Shown: piece by piece, positions 54,757 through 63,867 of the stretch
Layout: every line of letters starts with the position of its first letter
Numbering within the stretch: position 1 is the first letter of the stretch
NCBI RefSeq assembly: GCF_009914765.1
Contig: NZ_WYDS01000004.1
Span: 36,029-100,028, forward strand
Length of the DNA stretch: 64,000 nucleotides
Direction of reading: 5' to 3'
Source of the DNA: Halodesulfovibrio sp. MK-HDV
GTDB lineage: Bacteria; Desulfobacterota; Desulfovibrionia; Desulfovibrionales; Desulfovibrionaceae
Program-made: the position numbers and the translations under genes
Notes under the pieces: generated by a model
Database searches by the model: none
Told to the model about the DNA's origin: nothing
What the model saw: the letters and a program-made list of their open reading frames with translations, nothing else

Positions 54757-54982
54757 TTCAACCCCCTGACAAACGGATTTGAGTTATTTTGTTAATCGTC
54801 TGTTACTGCCGCAATGAGCGGTAGGCAGATGACATGTGTCTCTGTGCTCCTCCTATTTTGGCAGGCTGTGGCTTCTCCCGCATTTATATAAAGTAATCTA
54901 ATAACGAGGGCAGATTAACATCTTGACTATGATAATGGATTTCAATATCAAAAAAAGCGATACAAAAAGGTAGGGACGGTTT

Positions 54983-56098
54983 GTGAAAGAAAACGTGTTT
55001 AACCGCGAGGCAAAAGTTATCCGTAAAGCACGCTCGTTATTGTCGGGAGATGTGTTTCAACAGGAAGACGGAAAACAAAGCTATCGGGACTTGCTTATGG
55101 AGTACGAGAAATTAGTACGTCAGAGTAAGCGGTTATTGAAGATGGGGGACAGGATGCAACACGCACTATCTTCATTAAATGAAGAATTGCAATTGCGTGA
55201 GCAGACGTATCGGGGAATTTTTGAAAATGCGACGGAGGGCATTTACCGTACAGATGCACAGGGGACATTGCTTGAGGTAAATACGGCGCTTGCGAATATG
55301 CTGGGTTATAAATCTGCAGAAGAATATTTAGTCAGTGCGGATGAAATTGGGACTGCTTTTAATAATCATCATGTGCTTGGTCAGTACAACGAAATGTTGA
55401 ACAGCAAACAGGTGGTGAAGGGGATGCAGGCAAAACTGCGTTGCGCAGAAGGCGATACCGTTTGGGCAGAAATTAATGCCGGTGTTATTGAGTCCCAGTC
55501 TGCTGAAGGGAAACAGGTTGCCGGTGTTGTAGGCGTTATTGCGGATATTACAGAACGTAAACGGATGATGCGCGAAATGTGCAGACTTGCCCGTACGGAT
55601 TGCCTGACCAGCCTCTGGAATCGAGGATACTTTGTAGAACTTGCAACACAGGAAATTGTTCGTTGTAAGCGATTCGATAACGATCTCTCCATACTTCTTG
55701 TGGATGTTGATTACTTCAAACGGGTGAATGACAGATTCGGGCATGACGTAGGTGACAAAGTTCTCGTGGGCGTCGCTGATACTCTGCGGGAAACATTGCG
55801 AGAAGTGGATGTTATTGCACGGTTCGGGGGGGAAGAATTCGTTGTGATGCTGCCGGATACAGGACTTCAGGCAGCACAGCAGGCAGCGCGCAGAGTGCGT
55901 AATGCCATGCGTGAGCAAGTTTTTGCGTATGATCAGAAGCATCCTATAAAAGTCACGGTGAGCATTGGCGTAACAGCGTATCAAGATTCGTCAACGAGTT
56001 TGGACTTGCTTCTTAAACGTGCTGATACCGCAATGTATTCTGCAAAGCATAAAGGGCGTGACAGGGTGGAATATTGCCCTTTGGATTCTGTGGGGTAG
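54983..56098 (+). CDS. PAS-GGDEF diguanylate cyclase (SiaD-position)
   Basis: The 371-residue protein has an N-terminal helical region (about 30-75), a PAS domain (about 75-190; IFENATEGIYRTDAQGTLLE) and a GGDEF domain (about 205-365). The active-site motif is ARFGGEEFVVML, with upstream LLVDVDYFKRVNDRFGHDVGD, so it should make c-di-GMP from two GTP. No RxxD inhibitory site is evident just before GGEEF. The GTG start follows agggacgg. It leads the cluster DGC-siaB-siaC-HD-siaA. In Pseudomonas SiaABCD, the cyclase SiaD is activated by unphosphorylated SiaC. By position this is the SiaD equivalent. Confidence 0.88.
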   Translation: MKENVFNREAKVIRKARSLLSGDVFQQEDGKQSYRDLLMEYEKLVRQSKRLLKMGDRMQHALSSLNEELQLREQTYRGIFENATEGIYRTDAQGTLLEVNTALANMLGYKSAEEYLVSADEIGTAFNNHHVLGQYNEMLNSKQVVKGMQAKLRCAEGDTVWAEINAGVIESQSAEGKQVAGVVGVIADITERKRMMREMCRLARTDCLTSLWNRGYFVELATQEIVRCKRFDNDLSILLVDVDYFKRVNDRFGHDVGDKVLVGVADTLRETLREVDVIARFGGEEFVVMLPDTGLQAAQQAARRVRNAMREQVFAYDQKHPIKVTVSIGVTAYQDSSTSLDLLLKRADTAMYSAKHKGRDRVEYCPLDSVG

Positions 56099-56165
56099 AT
56101 GGAAATGACAAATAAACGAGATGGCAGAGGGCGTAATGGTCACATGCGGCATTGAGAGGGAACAG

Positions 56166-56711
56166 ATGGATTTCGAACACCAGAGACAGCAGTTCGAGCG
56201 GGATGAAGGTGTCATTTTTTATTTTAATGGGCCGGTTTCCCAGAGCGTTGTGGAAGGAATTGGCGATGCCGTTCGGGCTAAGATGCGCCATGATGCTGTG
56301 GGAATTGGTGTTACGCAAAAAGTGTTCACCATTCTTATCGAACAGATGCAGAACATTGTTCGGTATTCCACTGACCGGTTGATGGAAGACGAATTCGGTG
56401 CAGAGGCAGCTCGAGGGCAGGTAATTATCGGGCAGAATGGTGACGGTTCATACTTTATTTCAAGTGGTAATAGAATCCGTAGCGAAGATGCCACTGATTT
56501 GTATAAGCGCATTGAGCACGTCCGGTATATGTCTCCTGATGAGCTAAAGGTGCTCTATAAGGAGCAGCGTCGAAAGGCGAAAAACGGTTCAGAAAAAGGC
56601 GCCGGACTCGGTTTGATTGAAATGGCTCGCAAGTCCGGAAAGCCGCTTGATTTTGCCATAGAGCCGCTGGATGACGAGACATCTTTTTTTTCAATGAAGG
56701 TAACAGCATAG
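56166..56711 (+). CDS. siaB: SiaB-family protein kinase
   Basis: The 181-residue protein resembles SiaB (DUF6272), a GHKL-type kinase that phosphorylates SiaC. Visible features are an N-terminal VIFYFNGPVSQSVVEGIGDA, the N-box-like EQMQNIVRYSTDR, and the glycine-rich lid GSEKGAGLGLIEMARKSG. The start at 56166 has a strong gagaggg site; the frame is open 15 codons further upstream, but the added residues are not family-like. The siaC gene follows after nine bases. Confidence 0.87.
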   Translation: MDFEHQRQQFERDEGVIFYFNGPVSQSVVEGIGDAVRAKMRHDAVGIGVTQKVFTILIEQMQNIVRYSTDRLMEDEFGAEAARGQVIIGQNGDGSYFISSGNRIRSEDATDLYKRIEHVRYMSPDELKVLYKEQRRKAKNGSEKGAGLGLIEMARKSGKPLDFAIEPLDDETSFFSMKVTA

Positions 56712-56720
56712 GTCGTTCTG

Positions 56721-57104
56721 ATGGAAGAATTTATTGTTGTTGAGACAAAGTCCTCACCACGAATAGCGTTTAATCCTTTGACGCATTGTCATGAGATTAC
56801 CGGTGAATCGTACCCTGAAAATTGTTCAAAATTTTATGGCCCCATGTTTGAGTGGCTTGAAACATATTTGGGTAATGTCAGCAGTGTCAGGCTCGAGCTC
56901 TCAATAGATATTTTGTACTTTAATAGCTCCAGTTCAAAAGTTTTTATGGATTTGTTTGATCTTCTCGATGATGCCGCGTCGTTAAACACGGATGTTGTTG
57001 TTAATTGGCGCTACCATGAGGATAACGAACTGGCTTTGGAATGCGGTGAAGAATTTATGGAAGATGTTCAAAACATACATTTTAATCTGGTGAGCTATCA
57101 GTAG
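56721..57104 (+). CDS. siaC: SiaC-family regulatory phosphoprotein
   Basis: The 127-residue protein matches SiaC (DUF1987). The conserved segment LSIDILYFNSSSSKVFMDLF, near residues 60-80, holds the phosphorylation region; SiaC of Pseudomonas is phosphorylated on a Thr at the equivalent place, here likely one of the serines. Unphosphorylated SiaC activates the diguanylate cyclase; SiaB phosphorylates it and SiaA removes the phosphate. It is nine bases after siaB, so cotranscribed. Confidence 0.87.
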   Translation: MEEFIVVETKSSPRIAFNPLTHCHEITGESYPENCSKFYGPMFEWLETYLGNVSSVRLELSIDILYFNSSSSKVFMDLFDLLDDAASLNTDVVVNWRYHEDNELALECGEEFMEDVQNIHFNLVSYQ

Positions 57105-57154
57105 GCGGGGTGTCTTTTGTCTTTGCATTTACGCCACTCTTTGTGCGGTGACAT

Positions 57155-57841
57155 ATGACAATAATGGATGTTCCCATGGCAATAGGTGCTCTAGCTCAAC
57201 GTGAAGATAACCGGGTGCAGAGCGAGGTGCTCCGCTCGCTTCATTTGTTTGCAGAATCTTTGGGTAATGCCATTGATGCGAAAGATCACTGCACCTGTCT
57301 CCATTCTGAGGAAGTCGCAATTATTGCTCAGGCAATAGGAATACAACTGGAACTTTCGTCGATGGAAACACGGTTGCTCCATATTGCAGGACACTTGCAC
57401 GATATCGGAAAGATAGGGATTCCTGATTCCATTTTAAAAAAAGACAGTGCTCTCACGGATGAAGAGTATCAGGAAATTAAACTTCACCCGCAATTGGGTG
57501 CGGAGATTGTTACGCCAGTCATGGGGGCGGTGGGCAATGGCGAAATAGTCAAAGTCATCCTGCATCACCATGAGCGTTTTGATGGCAAAGGGTATCCAGA
57601 TGGCATTAGTGGATTCGATATTCCTTTAGGTGCGCGGATTATTGCCGTGGCTGATAGCCTTTCTGCCATGCTGCAAAACAGGCCGTATCGTGACGCTATG
57701 GAATATGGAGATGCTGTTGAAGAAATAATCCGATGTGCAGGAACGCAATTTGATCCTGTGATTGTCGCAGCCTTTGTGGAGATTAAGGACGGTGTGCACG
57801 ACCTTATTCAATCCATTCGCGGCGTCGGCGTTGCTGTGTGA
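57155..57841 (+). CDS. HD-GYP-like phosphodiesterase embedded in sia cluster
   Basis: The 228-residue single-domain protein has an HD pair in HIAGHLHDIGKIGIPDSILK near residues 78-95 and the HD-GYP hallmark HHHERFDGKGYPDGISG near 132-148, with GARIIAVADSLSAM after it. HD-GYP proteins hydrolyse c-di-GMP to pGpG or GMP. There is no receiver or sensor domain. Its place between siaC and siaA is not part of the Pseudomonas arrangement and suggests paired synthesis and degradation of c-di-GMP under the same switch. Start ATG 57155 has ggtgac upstream; Met4 is possible. Confidence 0.85.
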   Translation: MTIMDVPMAIGALAQREDNRVQSEVLRSLHLFAESLGNAIDAKDHCTCLHSEEVAIIAQAIGIQLELSSMETRLLHIAGHLHDIGKIGIPDSILKKDSALTDEEYQEIKLHPQLGAEIVTPVMGAVGNGEIVKVILHHHERFDGKGYPDGISGFDIPLGARIIAVADSLSAMLQNRPYRDAMEYGDAVEEIIRCAGTQFDPVIVAAFVEIKDGVHDLIQSIRGVGVAV

Positions 57842-57889
57842 CATCGATGACAAGTTATACGTAGTTTTATGAGCAGAGAGGGGGAGAAG

Positions 57890-59071
57890 ATGACTGTGCT
57901 GAGAAAAATTGTGGATACCATCGCATGGTCTACGATCAGCGGAAAAATGACCAGCCTGTTACTACTGCTGATTGTGGGAATACCATTGTGTATTCTCGTT
58001 ACAGGAGAAGAGCTTGGTCGAATAGAATTATACAATACTCTCGGAGCATGGGCGATTTTGGGGTTGATTGCTACGTGGCCTCTTTCGCGAGTATTATCGT
58101 ACTTGATTGCGCTGCGTCCTATTCAGGAGTTGAACGGGCTTTGCGTGGGAATGCAGAACGGAAATTTTACGCCCTTTGAAGAGTGTCCGCCCGAACCTTC
58201 CAATCAGGACGAATTACAGAAGTTACGGCATAATTTGTTCTGGATGGGGCATGTGATTGGTCGTCGGCAGTGCGAGTTACAAACAACAACGAATAAGTTG
58301 GAAGAAGCCCAACGGCAAAATAGAAGCTCGTTGGATTATGCAGAGGTAATTCAAAAAGCTTTTTTACCTCCAGCTGACGGGTTTACTGACCTGTTCAGCG
58401 ATTTCTTTTTGCTGTGGGAACAACGTGACGGTGTTGGCGGTGATGCATACTGGCGTAAAGAGACTGCGAACGGTTTTTTTGTGGCGGTTATTGATTGTAC
58501 CGGCCACGGAGTTCCCGGTGCTTTTATGACGCTGATTGTTCATTCCCTGCTGGATGGAATAGATATTCAGGCATATGAAAAAAATCCTGCAGGCGTCCTT
58601 TCGGCAATGAATGTTGCTATTAAAAAAGCGTTTCATTCGGACACAAAAAATGAGCGTCCAGATGATGGAATGGACTGCACCCTGTTGTATGTGGATAACA
58701 AACGAAATTCTATGTTTTTTGCGGGGGCACGTAACTACCTGTTTGTACGTCGACCTGACGGCAGTATCGAAGATTACAAGGGCGATAGAAAAGGTGTGGG
58801 AAATGAGCATACGCCAACGGATGCCGTTTTTACGAACCATGAAATTGAAATAGAAACCGGTACACGAATCTATATGCTCACGGACGGATTCATCGACCAG
58901 ATCGGAGAAGAGCGACGGTTGCCGTTTGGTCGAAAATTATTCCGCAATTTTATCGCGCAAGATTATGCCAGCTTTGAGGAACAGCGAGAGCAACTTCGAT
59001 TACTTTTTATTAGGTATCAAGGAACAGAAAAAAGGCGGGACGATTTACTCGTTCTGGGAGCGGAGTTGTAA
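57890..59071 (+). CDS. siaA: SiaA-like PP2C/SpoIIE protein phosphatase
   Basis: The 393-residue membrane protein has two hydrophobic helices near residues 20-40 and 55-80, a linker with a HAMP-like region, and a PP2C/SpoIIE phosphatase domain (about 165-390). Metal-binding motifs are RDGVGGDAYW, IDCTGHGVPGAFMTLI and MLTDGFIDQIGEE. SiaA dephosphorylates SiaC and so switches on the cyclase. Unlike Pseudomonas SiaA there is no large periplasmic sensor between the helices, so the input may be different. The start at 57890 follows a ggggga site; an ATG seven codons upstream is possible. Last gene of the sia-like cluster. Confidence 0.85.
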   Translation: MTVLRKIVDTIAWSTISGKMTSLLLLLIVGIPLCILVTGEELGRIELYNTLGAWAILGLIATWPLSRVLSYLIALRPIQELNGLCVGMQNGNFTPFEECPPEPSNQDELQKLRHNLFWMGHVIGRRQCELQTTTNKLEEAQRQNRSSLDYAEVIQKAFLPPADGFTDLFSDFFLLWEQRDGVGGDAYWRKETANGFFVAVIDCTGHGVPGAFMTLIVHSLLDGIDIQAYEKNPAGVLSAMNVAIKKAFHSDTKNERPDDGMDCTLLYVDNKRNSMFFAGARNYLFVRRPDGSIEDYKGDRKGVGNEHTPTDAVFTNHEIEIETGTRIYMLTDGFIDQIGEERRLPFGRKLFRNFIAQDYASFEEQREQLRLLFIRYQGTEKRRDDLLVLGAEL

Positions 59072-59209
59072 TTTAATTTTGCAAAGCGGTGTGGTTCACC
59101 TGCTGCGATGTTTGATTTTGTGTTTTGTTGGCAAAAAATAGTATATGGTAGGGACTCATACCTGCGTAATGACATTTGACACACTTTTTTAAAAGACAAG
59201 GTGTTTTGC

Positions 59210-60553
59210 ATGGTTAAAAATATTCTTCCCAAATCTCCTATTGCAGCAGCCGGAGTCGGCATTCTTGTGGGAGCTGGCATTGGCGGCATTAAAGGATGGT
59301 TAGGTGTCAGGCGCGGCGACACAACACAAAAAGAAGCTGTTGCAGGGGCTATTAAACAGGGATTGATGTTTGGTGGTATTGCAGCTGTTTCTACCCTTGC
59401 TTCTGGGAGTAAAGGTGGCGGTGCCGGACTGGCGACAATGGCAGTTATGGGTTTGAGTCGTGGGAGCAATGCGTTGCCTACGATGCTTATGGGCATGACT
59501 GGTGGTCGTGGCGGTGGCGGCGGAATGGGTGCCGGAGGCATGGGCGCAAGCAGCTTGGATTTTGGCAGCATGTTTAAAACAGGCGGCGGCCAAAGTGCTC
59601 AGGGTGGTCGTTCTGGGCAGAAAGGGCAAGGCGGTTCTTCTGGCAAAGGTGGACAAGCTGGTAACAATCAGCAGAGAACTCAGTCCGAAGATCGTAAAAA
59701 TATGTCAGGCACACCGTCTTCCGGTTCAATTTTGGATACGATTTCAAACGCTGTTGCTGACATGATCATTCCGGACGCCAAAACAGATACAACCCAAACT
59801 GCGCAGGTCGTTTCTGAGCCTGAAATGGTTCAAGATGAAGTGTCGGAGAAAGTAGAACCTACTGTGCAATCTGTTGTGATGGAATCAGAAGGTGATGCCG
59901 AAGGCATGCACGAAGACGGCATGGCTCTGCTAAACCAGAAAGGTCAAAAAGATCAGAAAGCTCAGGCAGACCAGAACAATCTGGCTGAGCGAACAAATCT
60001 GGCAGGCCAAAGAGATCAGACAGATCAAATAGATCCGGAAGACCAAACAGGCCCAATAGACCCAATAGACCCAATAGACGAGGCAGAGCAAACAAAGTTA
60101 GCAGGTCAAACAGATCCGGAAGATTTGATAGATGCAGAAGATTCTCGTGCTAAAAAAAATAAAATTAAAAAAGCCAAAGCAGGGCAAGCAACAAAAGCCG
60201 TAGCCTGCAAGGTATTCAGCATACAGTTTTATGGAGAATTTATGGATTTTACTACCGTAGCAAAATTGCGGAAATATTTATCGGTGAAACATCACCTTCC
60301 GGGCAGAATTCGTATCGCATTCGACAAATCAATTATCACAGATCCGGAAGCACTTGCGCTTGTAAAATCACCACCGAAAATGCCGGACGCAGTAAAAAAG
60401 ACCAGCCTGAATATTTTTTCTAAATCAATTGTTATTGAATACGACGCAAACCGCATTCCACCGCAGATGCTTGAGGATTTGATAAATGCACCTTCAGATG
60501 AAGTTGCGAGTGGTATTGTGGAAAAATTGTATGCTCTTTTATATGAAAGCTAA
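59210..60553 (+). CDS. Gly-rich, low-complexity protein with HMA-like C-terminal domain
   Basis: The roughly 447-residue protein has four parts. An N-terminal hydrophobic Gly/Ala region (VGILVGAGIGGIKGWLG, LMFGGIAAVSTLASG) could insert in membranes. A glycine-rich stretch covers about 95-155. A Gln/Asp/Pro-rich repeat region (about 245-315) is built on the DNA unit ccaatagac, present three times at 60053-60079. The last 90 residues (VKHHLPGRIRIAFDKSIITD...) resemble the HMA_2-type domains preceding P1B ATPases and the N-terminus of the ATPase at 61732. ATG 59210 follows aaggtg. Function is unknown; metal handling is inferred from the C-terminus and the neighbours. Confidence 0.7.
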   Translation: MVKNILPKSPIAAAGVGILVGAGIGGIKGWLGVRRGDTTQKEAVAGAIKQGLMFGGIAAVSTLASGSKGGGAGLATMAVMGLSRGSNALPTMLMGMTGGRGGGGGMGAGGMGASSLDFGSMFKTGGGQSAQGGRSGQKGQGGSSGKGGQAGNNQQRTQSEDRKNMSGTPSSGSILDTISNAVADMIIPDAKTDTTQTAQVVSEPEMVQDEVSEKVEPTVQSVVMESEGDAEGMHEDGMALLNQKGQKDQKAQADQNNLAERTNLAGQRDQTDQIDPEDQTGPIDPIDPIDEAEQTKLAGQTDPEDLIDAEDSRAKKNKIKKAKAGQATKAVACKVFSIQFYGEFMDFTTVAKLRKYLSVKHHLPGRIRIAFDKSIITDPEALALVKSPPKMPDAVKKTSLNIFSKSIVIEYDANRIPPQMLEDLINAPSDEVASGIVEKLYALLYES

Positions 60554-60573
60554 ATAGTTACTGTAATAACAAG

Positions 60574-60608
60574 TCCTTGCTTTGTGTGCAAAGCAGGGGC
60601 TTTTTTTA
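60574..60608 (+). terminator. Intrinsic terminator
   Basis: A 10-bp stem, ccttgctttg / caaagcaggg (one G-U), with a TGTG loop is followed by T7, 20 bases after the Gly-rich gene. Confidence 0.8.
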
Positions 60609-60623
60609 TATGTAAATAAGTTG

Positions 60624-60652
60624 TTGACGATGATAATCGTTTTCACTACAAC
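60624..60652 (+). promoter_or_regulatory. Sigma-70 promoter overlapped by a Fur box
   Basis: TTGACG (60624-60629), 17 bases, TACAAC (60647-60652) forms a promoter. The 19 bases 60626-60644 match the Fur consensus GATAATGATAATCATTATC at 15 positions and cover the end of the -35 and nearly all the spacer, the classic place for repression. It predicts iron-dependent repression of the gene at 60684 and perhaps those behind it. Confidence 0.65.
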
Positions 60653-60683
60653 GAGAGTATGAAATGCATGGAGGGACACACTG

Positions 60684-60953
60684 ATGGATAGAAATATTCA
60701 AGAAAGAGCAAAACGGTTTGCAGCGCAGTGCGATACATTGTCGTTTGTAGAAAGCTCCTGCGCATGCTCTGTTGGTGATGTTAAAAGACGCTCACGGAGC
60801 AGGGACTACGGTCTGTTGTTATCACTATGTGGTGTGATGGTTTGCAACCAGTTGAACCTTGGTGTCGGGCAGGCTGTATGTCATGGTGTTATGAAGGTGT
60901 GCATGAATAATATGTCGCATCAAGCGTACAATAACCAGTCATACAATAACTAG
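60684..60953 (+). CDS. Small cysteine-containing protein behind a Fur-type promoter
   Basis: The 89-residue protein has a CAC motif (SFVESSCACSVGDVKRRSRS) and a hydrophobic stretch (YGLLLSLCGVMVCNQLNLGV) followed by more Cys (AVCHGVMKVCMNN) and an Asn/Gln/Tyr-rich end. Seven cysteines in 89 residues with a possible membrane helix suggest a metal- or redox-linked role, but no family is recognised. A ggaggg site before the ATG and a Fur-box promoter 30 bases upstream support a real, iron-regulated gene. A terminator follows, so read-through would be needed to reach the ATPase genes. Confidence 0.65.
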   Translation: MDRNIQERAKRFAAQCDTLSFVESSCACSVGDVKRRSRSRDYGLLLSLCGVMVCNQLNLGVGQAVCHGVMKVCMNNMSHQAYNNQSYNN

Positions 60954-61025
60954 GCAATACTTCGTAGTCGTTGGTGTCCCTTTATATGAATACATATTTC
61001 TAGGTAGAGATCTTTTTGTCATAAG

Positions 61026-61062
61026 GTCTTTGCGATACAATCTATCGCAAAGGCTTTTTTTT
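61026..61062 (+). terminator. Intrinsic terminator between Fur-regulated gene and ATPase operon
   Basis: A 12-bp stem, gtctttgcgata / tatcgcaaaggc (one G-U), with a 5-base loop is followed by T8. It lies 73 bases after the small Cys-containing gene and 22 bases before the next start. Confidence 0.85.
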
Positions 61063-61083
61063 ATCCATATGGAGGCGCTTAGC

Positions 61084-61290
61084 ATGAAAGACATTTCAGA
61101 AAAATTGTTGTTAGTGGCGGCCGGCGCGGCTTTAGGGGCTGTCGGCTATCTTGCGTGGAAAAACAGAGACGAGCTTCATGAGTTACTAGATGTAGCTCTT
61201 GATAAGGGAAAGGAGCTCATGGAGCAGCAAGTGGAAGATTTAGGAGATCTTGTTCCTGAGTCAACGGTTGCAGAAGAAGGAGGTAACTAA
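61084..61290 (+). CDS. Small single-helix membrane protein upstream of P1B ATPase (1)
   Basis: The 68-residue protein has one Gly/Ala-rich membrane helix with GxxxG-type spacing (LLLVAAGAALGAVGYLAW) followed by a charged, probably helical tail (RDELHELLDVALDKGKELME) ending acidic. ATG 61084 has a perfect ggagg site. The next gene overlaps its stop by one base. Small single-helix proteins encoded beside P1B ATPases are known as PacL/DUF1490 chaperones in mycobacteria. The analogy here rests on size, topology and position, not demonstrated homology. Confidence 0.75.
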   Translation: MKDISEKLLLVAAGAALGAVGYLAWKNRDELHELLDVALDKGKELMEQQVEDLGDLVPESTVAEEGGN

Positions 61291-61652
61291 TGGCGGTGAA
61301 TAGATTAGCATACTTTTTTGCAGGCGCAGTGCTTGGTGCCGCAGGGCTGGCAATGGTCAAAAGCGGTAAGGGGCAGCAGCTTGTTTCCGGTATGATTCAT
61401 GGTGGCTGTGGGCTTACAGAAAACGTTCTTGCCCGTGTGGAAACCGTTAAAGAAGATATCGAAGATTACATGGCAGAGATCAAATACAAGGCTGAGCAAG
61501 GAAAAGAAGCCGCTTCTGGTGCAGATAAGCCAGAAGAACCTACCGCTCAGTCTGAATCTGCGTCAAAGAAAAAGCCGAATGTTGAGACGGACGAAGAGTT
61601 CGACGAAGAGTCGGAACTGCAGGGGGAAGATCCACGACAATTCTTTCGATAA
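61290..61652 (+). CDS. Small single-helix membrane protein upstream of P1B ATPase (2)
   Basis: The 120-residue protein has an N-terminal Gly/Ala-rich membrane helix (RLAYFFAGAVLGAAGLAMVK), a helical middle (TVKEDIEDYMAEIKYKAEQG) and an acidic tail (ETDEEFDEESELQGEDPRQF) that could bind cations. The helix resembles that of the preceding protein, so the pair may be a duplicated or hetero-oligomeric unit. Its ATG overlaps the previous stop (taATG) behind a strong aaggaggt site. The P1B ATPase starts 79 bases later. A chaperone or scaffold role for the pump is inferred. Confidence 0.75.
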   Translation: MAVNRLAYFFAGAVLGAAGLAMVKSGKGQQLVSGMIHGGCGLTENVLARVETVKEDIEDYMAEIKYKAEQGKEAASGADKPEEPTAQSESASKKKPNVETDEEFDEESELQGEDPRQFFR

Positions 61653-61731
61653 GAGGACTCAGTAATTTTTATATTCGCACGGAATATTGTGTGAGTTGTG
61701 GTGCATACGCACAACTAGTGGCGGAGAATAC

Positions 61732-63867
61732 ATGACGGTTATACGAAGTTTTCCGGGGCGTATCCGGTTCTCGGCGCAATCTCCTGCTGCTGTCCAGCTA
61801 TTACAGCAGCAGGCGGAAGTTGCGCTCGATCAGATTAAGACACACATAGCAGTAGAATATAATCCTCGCACAAAGCGTGGTTTGTTGACGTTTGAAAGAA
61901 ATGCTGACCTTACAACCCTGCTTGTGGATGTAGTTGAAGGTATGGCGCAGAAACTTGCGTCGTCCAACATTCTTACAGAAGCAGAGGGAGCATCAGGCAG
62001 CCTTGTGCCTGTAGAAACACAGGTTTCCGAAGCTGGGAACGATGTGGAGAATCCTGTCTGGATTATCTCCCAAAAAGTTATGAATCATTACATGGCACGC
62101 ATGTTCATGCCTGCCACACTTCGTCCTTATTGGACTGCGTTTAAAGTGGCTCCACTTATGTGGGCAGGTTTACAGTCACTGCGTCAGCGCAAGCTGGATG
62201 TAAATGTGCTGGATGCAGCCGCTGTCGGCGCTGCTCTTGCCATGCGTGACTTTAATACCGCAGGAACAATTAACCTGCTGCTCGACATCAGTGAAACTCT
62301 TGAAGAGTGGACAAAAGAAAAATCCCGCAGTGACATTGCAGCACTATTTAACGGTGATAAGAAACCGGTATGGGTGATGCGCAATGACGAGCCGGTTTCC
62401 GTTTCTCCAGATGACCTTGTCGTGGGTGATCTTGTGGTTGTGCGTTCAGGCGCACGAATACCTATTGATGGTGTTGTTGCTGAGGGCACAGCCCTTGTGA
62501 ATCAGGCATCAATGACAGGTGAACCACTTGCGGTTGAAAAGAGCATGGATAGTGAAGTGTACGCAGGAACCGTCGTGGAGGAAGGGCGTATTATTGTATA
62601 CGCCGAATCCGTCGGTAATGAGACGCGCTTTGCAAAGATTGCTCAAATTCTGACAGAATCTGATGATCGTAAAGCAGACATTCATAGTCAGGCTGTAAAA
62701 ATGGCAGATAAAATTGTGCCATTTTCCTTTATCCTTTCAGGACTTGTTTTTGTTGTGACTCGCAACATGACGCAGGCTGCAGCTGTTTTGCTTGCGGATT
62801 ATTCTTGTGCAATTAAGCTTGCGACTCCGCTTGCGGTGCGTTCTGCAATGCTTGAAGCGGCACATAACGGGGCGGTCATTAAGGGCGGAAAGTATCTGGA
62901 ACACTTGTCCAAACTGGATGCAATTGTTCTGGATAAAACAGGAACCCTCACAGAAGCGCGTCCGGAAGTTGTGAAAGTCTGTGCTGTTAACGGTTATACT
63001 GAAGAGTTTGTATTGCAGCAGGCTGCATGCATGGAAGAGCACTTCCCGCATCCGGTTGCCGATGCCATTGTGCGCAAGGCGGACGAAGCAGGATTAGTGC
63101 ATTCTGAAGATCATGCAGAGGTTGAGTACATTCTGGCGCACGGTATTGCGACTTCCTTGGACGGTCATCGTACCGTTTTGGGCAGTAAGCATTTTGTGCA
63201 TGAAGATGAAGGTATTTCGTTTGAAAATGCAGATGAAGTGATTGCTGAGTGCTCCGGCGCAGGGCTTTCTTTACTGTACTTTGCGTGTGGCGGAGAACTT
63301 GCCGGTGTTTTTGCGATTAAAGATCCAGTCAGGGAAGATGCGAATCAGTTTATTCGAAAGCTTGAACGTAGAGATGTGGAACGCATTATTATGCTGACAG
63401 GTGACGGAGAAGAAACTGCTGCCTCGGTTGCGAAGGATTTGCAAATAGAAGAATACTATTCGCAAGCATTACCGGATGAGAAGACTGCGTTAATCAAGAA
63501 TCTTCAGGCTCAGGGGTATACTGTAGCCATGGTGGGTGACGGTATTAACGATTCCGCAGCACTGACCACTGCTGATGTAGGTGTTTCAATGAAGCACGGT
63601 GCGGACATTGCCCGCGAAGCGTGTGATATTATGCTTACAGGCGAACGGTTGGATAGTTTGACGGATGCTATAGATATCTCAAAAAGTGCAATGCAGCGGA
63701 TCAGGCGCAACTTTATGTTTATTGTTGCAAGTAACACTTTGTTTATTGGACTCGGTGTTTCTGGAGTAATTACGCCAGCCTTGATGGCGTTGCTGCATAA
63801 CTCCGGTACGGTTTTAACATGTGTACACTCAATGAGACCAATGTTGTCAGAACGCGATCACGCGTAA
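61732..63867 (+). CDS. P1B-type metal ATPase with HMA_2-like N-terminus and SCA motif
   Basis: The 711-residue pump has an N-terminal HMA-like domain without the CxxC metal site (IRSFPGRIRFSAQSPAAVQL), few predicted membrane helices, TGEP in the actuator, the ion-path motif DYSCAIKLATPLAV with S358-C359-A360 replacing CPC, phosphorylation site DKTGTLTEA with Asp401, an HP motif in EEHFPHPVADAIV, and GDGINDSAAL. The family includes Mn2+/Zn2+-type CtpC-like pumps, so Fe2+, Mn2+, Zn2+ or Co2+ efflux is plausible. ATG 61732 is fixed by ggag. Two small membrane proteins precede it and a Fur box lies 1.1 kb upstream. Confidence 0.88.
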   Translation: MTVIRSFPGRIRFSAQSPAAVQLLQQQAEVALDQIKTHIAVEYNPRTKRGLLTFERNADLTTLLVDVVEGMAQKLASSNILTEAEGASGSLVPVETQVSEAGNDVENPVWIISQKVMNHYMARMFMPATLRPYWTAFKVAPLMWAGLQSLRQRKLDVNVLDAAAVGAALAMRDFNTAGTINLLLDISETLEEWTKEKSRSDIAALFNGDKKPVWVMRNDEPVSVSPDDLVVGDLVVVRSGARIPIDGVVAEGTALVNQASMTGEPLAVEKSMDSEVYAGTVVEEGRIIVYAESVGNETRFAKIAQILTESDDRKADIHSQAVKMADKIVPFSFILSGLVFVVTRNMTQAAAVLLADYSCAIKLATPLAVRSAMLEAAHNGAVIKGGKYLEHLSKLDAIVLDKTGTLTEARPEVVKVCAVNGYTEEFVLQQAACMEEHFPHPVADAIVRKADEAGLVHSEDHAEVEYILAHGIATSLDGHRTVLGSKHFVHEDEGISFENADEVIAECSGAGLSLLYFACGGELAGVFAIKDPVREDANQFIRKLERRDVERIIMLTGDGEETAASVAKDLQIEEYYSQALPDEKTALIKNLQAQGYTVAMVGDGINDSAALTTADVGVSMKHGADIAREACDIMLTGERLDSLTDAIDISKSAMQRIRRNFMFIVASNTLFIGLGVSGVITPALMALLHNSGTVLTCVHSMRPMLSERDHA

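Follow-up and report, generated by a model that had tools for sequence, protein, structure and literature searches.

In the available sections of the literature, the action of SiaC on a helical stalk has been worked out for one cyclase of Pseudomonas aeruginosa, and the crystal structure of the SiaC-SiaD complex has SiaC gripping the stalk motifs via S82, D83 and Q86, with R84 and others (PMC8457831). The same source leaves open that proteins with a SiaC domain may generally modulate neighbouring proteins, and the available part of another paper proposed in 2022 that PP2C/STAS switches of Campylobacterota control a c-di-GMP (cyclic diguanosine monophosphate) turnover enzyme or a chemoreceptor (PMC9239204). 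In a search of the open-access literature, no HD-GYP protein was reported as a target of SiaC. Here we describe a row of five genes from Halodesulfovibrio sp. MK-HDV in which an HD-GYP gene lies inside a SiaABCD-like cluster. The row was found in a stretch of 64,000 nucleotides (contig NZ_WYDS01000004.1, positions 36,029 to 100,028), the whole of which is referred to as the window. The locus is real, and it combines ordinary parts in an unusual way that constitutes a SiaABCD variant not described before.

Our preferred reading, to which we give somewhat better than even chances, is a SiaABCD-type switch in which SiaC controls a stalk-PAS-GGDEF cyclase, while an HD-GYP phosphodiesterase that is separate and ungated is transcribed together with it. 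In this reading we infer that SiaC is phosphorylated and docks, that the genes share a transcript, and that the HD-GYP protein hydrolyses c-di-GMP and serves as a brake. SiaB would phosphorylate SiaC on the serine at the Thr68 position and SiaA would remove the phosphate; unphosphorylated SiaC would dock on the cyclase stalk and turn c-di-GMP synthesis on, while the inserted PAS domain may give the cyclase an additional input. Expressed from the shared promoter, the HD-GYP protein would keep hydrolysing c-di-GMP, lowering its basal level and clearing the signal when the cyclase is off. The genes concerned are the following.

54983-56098, plus strand: diguanylate cyclase (stalk at about residues 35-70, PAS 76-192, GGDEF 204-361)
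56121-56711, plus strand: SiaB family kinase (NF038262, 187.5 bits; 6kko_A, E 4e-28)
56721-57104, plus strand: SiaC phosphoprotein (PF09345, E 8e-41; 6kko_C, E 7e-18)
57155-57841, plus strand: stand-alone HD-GYP protein of 228 amino acids, with no sensor domain and no docking stalk (PF13487, E 2e-37)
57869-59071, plus strand: SiaA-type PP2C phosphatase with a short hydrophobic N-terminus (NF038263, positions 391-654; 6k4e, E 3e-45)

This order of cyclase, SiaB, SiaC, HD-GYP and SiaA had been given in a preliminary description of the DNA, and both the coordinates and the families agree with it. The HD-GYP gene does stand inside the Sia cluster, in an operon-like row (54983-59071) that keeps to one strand with gaps of 22, 9, 50 and 27 bases in gene order. 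The first strong terminator-like hairpin on the plus strand 3' of the cyclase start is located at 60571-60602, behind an HMA2 gene, and the weaker plus-strand matches 5' of it all fall inside genes.

The individual proteins are recognizable members of their families. The cyclase (PF00990, E 4e-48) has the PAS domain previously claimed for it, between the docking-type stalk and the GGDEF domain, and its GGEEF motif and RxxD I-site read as canonical; its best NCBIfam model is SiaD (NF038266), matched in the GGDEF part only at 192 bits against a cut-off of 290. SiaB, the sole SiaB found in this genome, exceeds the NF038262 cut-off of 85, falls under that of the SiaB equivalog (137 against 225) and keeps the Glu of IE.xQN by alignment reading. 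SiaC, with 6kko and 7e6g as its PDB relatives, likewise scores under its equivalog cut-off (100 against 150). Its acceptor position is Ser (YFNSSS) compared with Thr68 in P. aeruginosa (YLNTSS), and Ser occupies this position in 12 of 13 aligned SiaC proteins. In SiaA the catalytic Asp residues of the PP2C domain are kept by alignment reading, and the NF038263 match spans only the listed part of the 658 model positions (193 bits against a cut-off of 700). The N-terminal half is absent from this match, in agreement with the earlier claim that SiaA lacks the large periplasmic sensor.

Judged by sequence, the window cyclase carries a putative stalk of the SiaC-docking type and the HD-GYP protein carries none. 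Compared by eye with the SiaD motif R80-I81-S82-D83-R84-Y85-Q86 (PMC8457831), the KMGDRMQ of the cyclase has D, R and Q in common, and this D-R-x-Q stands in a stalk that SiaC-linked cyclases share. A stalk profile was built from 13 stalks, which included that of the window and none of the HD-GYP proteins scored. The window HD-GYP scored -0.4 bits with it, and the four orthologous proteins from this locus scored between -0.8 and 0.9 bits. Among HD-GYP proteins near SiaC elsewhere, the profile returned 66.7 (L132), 66.2 (L164), 29.3 (L114) and 15.3 bits (L138), and low scores for L150 (1.1), L130 (-0.4), L122 (-0.5) and L145 (-1.1). The predicted structure of L164 has a single 66-residue helix running into the HD-GYP domain; the window HD-GYP has a shorter lead helix (residues 10-43), and residues 1-15 of its model have pLDDT (predicted local confidence) below 50. 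Lacking the stalk, the window HD-GYP does not qualify as a target of SiaC under the only mode of docking of which we are aware.

This result bears directly on the reciprocal control at which the preliminary description had hinted, taken here to mean that the phospho-state of SiaC would turn the cyclase on and the HD-GYP off by direct contact with each. Stalk-bearing HD-GYP proteins beside SiaC in other lineages make SiaC-gated phosphodiesterases plausible and lend the idea some credit, but the window protein has neither the stalk nor, with its low-confidence N-terminus, a long helix. Taken with the genome comparisons below, the idea does not hold up well, and we consider it unlikely.

The same locus was recovered in five species. 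The window has cyclase-SiaB-SiaC-HD, followed by SiaA; two relatives (G001 and G002) have cyclase-SiaC-HD, a third (G008) cyclase-HD and a fourth (G005) HD only. The HD-GYP gene is therefore present in 5/5, the cyclase in 4/5, SiaC in 3/5, and SiaB and SiaA in 1/5 each. A serine dehydratase gene (SDH) lies upstream in all five, and HMA2 and P-ATPase genes lie downstream in every species except G005. The recurrence of cyclase-SiaC-HD at one locus in two more species, within a single clade, removes the concern that the HD gene is a chance insertion in one genome. In terms of reciprocal control, the SiaC of this module is found only where both cyclase and HD are present (3/3 loci), and the 50-base gap between SiaC and HD is kept in three species, both of which speak for it. 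The HD-GYP orthologues nevertheless live without SiaC, being kept without SiaC and SiaB in G005 (where a genome search found no SiaC, no SiaB and no close cyclase homologue) and without SiaC at the G008 locus. Adjacency of HD and SiaC proves little in itself, since the three loci are flanked just as constantly by SDH and HMA2/P-ATPase.

The window genome (G000) and G005 are sisters, with a support of 97 using all positions of rpoB and of 100 in an unrooted five-species tree of rpoB, SDH and HD. The other inner nodes of the rpoB tree reached 36-58, and rpoB codon positions 1 and 2 left the species unresolved, with supports of 23-67 within the clade. Given this sister relationship, the absence of the cyclase from G005 is most simply read as a loss. 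The reading is backed by the operon's upstream element, which by alignment precedes the cyclase in four species and in G005 stands directly 5' of HD (96 bases at 75%, E 2e-13). Besides this shared upstream sequence, the spaces between the genes in G001, G002, G005 and G008 yielded only short chance-level matches when searched for traces of lost genes.

Three of these relatives (G001, G002 and G008) possess a second module elsewhere, SiaB-SiaC2-MCP-SiaA (L041, L035 and L038). The MCP is a membrane chemotaxis receptor (PF00015) that stands between SiaC2 and SiaA and bears no stalk; the second-module SiaC may act on it. Exactly one SiaB was found in each of the 8 SiaB-bearing genomes, so that in G001 and G002 one SiaB either serves two SiaC proteins or leaves one unserved. 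In the SiaC tree the window, G001 and G002 form one clade (96) and the module-2 proteins another (98), with a support of only 69 for all six together. The SiaB and SiaA of the window cluster with their module-2 counterparts (100 and 100) and lie outside the module-2 clades (93 and 99). These sequence relationships fit a switch that was duplicated and then lost in part. The alternative history would be a single copy that moved and evolved fast. SiaB and SiaA may have been lost from this locus in the relatives or gained in the window species; the larger SiaB/SiaA distance (57-63%, compared with 74-84% within module 2) favours old paralogues.

Another four genomes assigned to the genus (G003, G004, G006 and G007) split off deeply, with a support of 100. 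They have the order cyclase-SiaA-SiaB-SiaC with no PAS domain, and their HD homologues (54-61% identity) are at unrelated loci. In the tenth genome, G009, SiaC is absent and so is any close HD homologue, the best reaching 41%. Viral contigs gave no SiaC relative when screened with short patterns, which detect close relatives only, and among plasmids 19 records held SiaC relatives, every one below 60% identity.

To place these loci in the context of the family, 199 sampled genomes were surveyed with up to 14 candidates scored per genome and an HD cut-off of E<=1e-58. The HD homologue was present in 87 genomes and SiaC over its cut-off in 47; both were present in 32, and HD without SiaC in 55. 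The two genes are adjacent in three of the 32 (the window, G001 and G002). In G144, G155 and G215 about 9 kb separates them, and in G173 13 kb, with other genes in between. In the remaining 25 they are on other contigs or more than 15 kb apart, which again argues against reciprocal control, although in broken assemblies other contigs are no proof of distance. In four genomes of genus g5 (L197-L200) a distance of 9-13 kb separates the HD homologue from the Sia cluster, and an ABC-ATPase-like gene follows HD in L197 and L198.

Such a distribution is what would be expected if the HD-GYP protein were an ordinary family-wide enzyme that shares a locus and a promoter with the switch and has no special role in it. 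The many homologues with only three adjoining SiaC, the unlinked loci of G003, G004, G006 and G007, and the intervening genes of the g5 genomes are all consistent with this explanation. It accounts less well for the short same-strand gaps, for the conserved 50-base spacing and for a gene that sits inside rather than beside the Sia genes, in a neighbourhood whose products make and presumably break the same messenger. We regard it as improbable and retain the reading of a gated cyclase with an ungated phosphodiesterase.

Several observations weigh against that preferred reading. Co-occurrence of HD and SiaC in the family is higher than independence would give (32 genomes, with 20.5 expected; Fisher p 2e-4, kinship uncorrected), which speaks somewhat for a link between HD and SiaC and also counts in favour of reciprocal control. 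SiaC could also bind the HD-GYP by another surface. The window stalk has a single motif where that of P. aeruginosa SiaD has two, and a comparison of the window stalk with the PDB gave four matches at E<=10, none of which was SiaD (7e6g). As the SiaD model in turn covers the GGDEF part only, the docking claim rests on motif, position and operon context. Finally, residues R192 and D308 of the HD-GYP protein PmGH correspond to E53 and S170 in the window HD-GYP, so activity is not assured.

The catalytic features of the HD-GYP protein bear on this last point. The protein contains complete HDIGK and HHERFDGKGYP motifs, and its PDB relatives are 5z7c, 4mcw and 4r8z; a Foldseek search likewise recovered 4mcw (E 2e-11, TM (template modelling) score 0.79) and 4r8z. 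Compared with PmGH, 7/8 metal ligands are kept together with D183 and K225, and E185 is replaced by C46 in addition to the two changes above. The D308A replacement cut PmGH activity as strongly as loss of a metal ligand. These substitutions would suit a protein that is no c-di-GMP hydrolase, acting instead as a slow or inactive receptor or on another cyclic dinucleotide. Two further points lie on that side: the best sequence match among solved structures is V-cGAP3 (5z7c), which is specific for cyclic GMP-AMP, and DvhD (from Desulfovibrio, to go by its name) was solved as a c-di-GMP-bound HD-GYP domain according to the PDB titles. The retained ligands argue otherwise, as does the neighbouring cyclase with its canonical motifs. 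Ser or Thr at the D308 position is moreover common, occurring in 16/30 HD-GYP domains fetched from the genus (5/30 being this protein and its orthologues). We judge the non-hydrolase explanation quite unlikely, and the HD-GYP protein is likely active as a phosphodiesterase. Across the whole HD subfamily (16/16 aligned) the motif HSEEVA is accompanied by AD.LSAM or AD.FSAM, with the R192-D308 pair of PmGH lost on both sides.

A wider survey addressed the stalk in other lineages. It comprised 102 loci (22 relatives and 80 named loci, the best 80 of 333), with SiaC annotated in 97 of them, 89 distinct. An HD-GYP-type gene was located within six reading frames of SiaC in 11/89 distinct loci, one of which (L163) lacks the canonical motifs. 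Four HD-GYP proteins have the stalk; L132 and L164 are clear, L114 is weaker and 7 kb from SiaC, and L138 is under the survey threshold. Those in SiaC/SiaB clusters are the following.

L132, 9005-9877: stalk-HD-GYP protein, strong
L164, 9028-9900: stalk-HD-GYP protein, strong
L138, 6609-7436: stalk-HD-GYP protein, weak

The clear clusters belong to SAR324 and an unclassified bacterium, and the weaker cases to Gallionellaceae and Sulfurimonas. The Sulfurimonas locus (L138) has the row SiaA, HD-GYP, SiaB and SiaC, and six frames to either side hold no cyclase. In these lineages it is plausible that SiaC controls a phosphodiesterase. By Pfam assignment the stalk is also found on class III cyclases near SiaC (L047, L119, L120 and L137), on kinases or kinase-type ATPases (L122, L130, L145, L144 and L117) and on a double protein of cyclase and GGDEF (L125); in L137 and L144 the stalk protein is on the opposite strand. 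We tentatively suggest, at slightly under even chances, that SiaC acts generally as a phospho-switched clamp on a helical stalk that is portable. The same SiaA/SiaB/SiaC switch would then make, break or replace c-di-GMP according to the stalk cargo, and the window, with its breaking enzyme beside the switch, would perhaps be an ungated or differently gated intermediate.

The preliminary description had further suggested that sensory input moved from SiaA to the cyclase. Of 127 loci scanned, 38 had a SiaA together with a stalk-GGDEF protein. In 10/38 an insert of PAS size separated the stalk from the GGDEF domain, all 10 with a short SiaA, and SiaA was short in 12/28 loci without the insert. 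After removal of four duplicates and two fragments, the counts were 8/8 with and 9/24 without the insert (Fisher p 0.003, kinship uncorrected). Short SiaA with a PAS cyclase recurs in other Desulfovibrionaceae. The suggestion gains from PAS inserts occurring only with a short SiaA; it loses in that the combination is a trait of the family and insert-free clusters, too, can have a short SiaA. An input shift from SiaA to the cyclase is possible.

Two overlapping features precede the operon.

54923-54951, plus strand: promoter-like element TTGACT, 17 bases, TATCAA, conserved in 5 species
54930-54950, plus strand: Fur-box-like palindrome TGATAATGGATTTCAATATCA overlapping the promoter-like element

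Mismatches to the Fur consensus, out of 19, numbered 4 in the window, G002 and G008, 5 in G001 and 2 in G005. Five or fewer mismatches arose in 1.5% of 2000 mononucleotide shuffles of the window promoter. A control with FeoB loci was weak, the best Fur match per locus of 3.0-3.5 kb having 4 to 6 mismatches of 19. A sigma-70 consensus scan gave 6 matches against 13.9 expected and carries no weight; the 54923-54951 element fails its rule and is not among the matches. Iron control of the operon is put forward as a hypothesis on the basis of this putative box.

A second Fur-box-like palindrome (60626-60644) precedes the small genes and P-ATPase farther downstream in 4/4 species. Both palindromes stand behind TTGAC, and that at 54930-54950 is kept in 5/5 species. 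The region 59201-63867 encodes an HMA2-domain protein, small proteins and a heavy-metal P-type ATPase, a group that we take to resemble ferrosome (fez) clusters. FezA/FezB of C. difficile are described in print as Fur-repressed.

The Halodesulfovibrio series reveals no genes strictly bound to travel together; the HD-GYP gene is its constant member, and the natural deletions lend themselves to testing. The stalk survey converts the general remark of PMC8457831 into a sequence test, in which one finds the stalk and asks what its cargo is. By that test, phosphodiesterases gated by SiaC are to be expected in SAR324 and perhaps in Sulfurimonas, but not in the window.

Comparison with known systems places the locus nearest to SiaABCD of P. 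aeruginosa (PMC8457831 and PMC7647112), with which it shares a SiaA-type PP2C, SiaB, SiaC and a GGDEF cyclase, the latter with a putative helical stalk bearing the docking motif. It differs in the internal HD-GYP, the order cyclase-B-C-HD-A, the PAS domain of the cyclase, one motif in place of two, a SiaA without the large sensor and Ser for Thr68. Other Desulfovibrionaceae Sia clusters (such as L197-L200, L028 and L048) likewise have a stalk-PAS-GGDEF protein and short SiaA near SiaC, but no HD-GYP within the cluster; where fetched, the HD homologue is elsewhere or 9-13 kb away. The Halodesulfovibrio second module (L035, L038 and L041) has the same frame, B-C-X-A, and the related SiaB and SiaA, whereas its X is the MCP rather than HD-GYP and the module is without a cyclase. 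The PP2C, STAS-kinase and STAS clusters of Campylobacterota are similar in that a switch is proposed for a c-di-GMP turnover enzyme or chemoreceptor; the proposal concerns other organisms and, in the section available (PMC9239204, section 10), names neither HD-GYP nor a docking stalk. L132 and L164, and more weakly L114 and L138, resemble the window in having HD-GYP in the SiaC neighbourhood and differ from it in that the stalk is on the HD-GYP itself.

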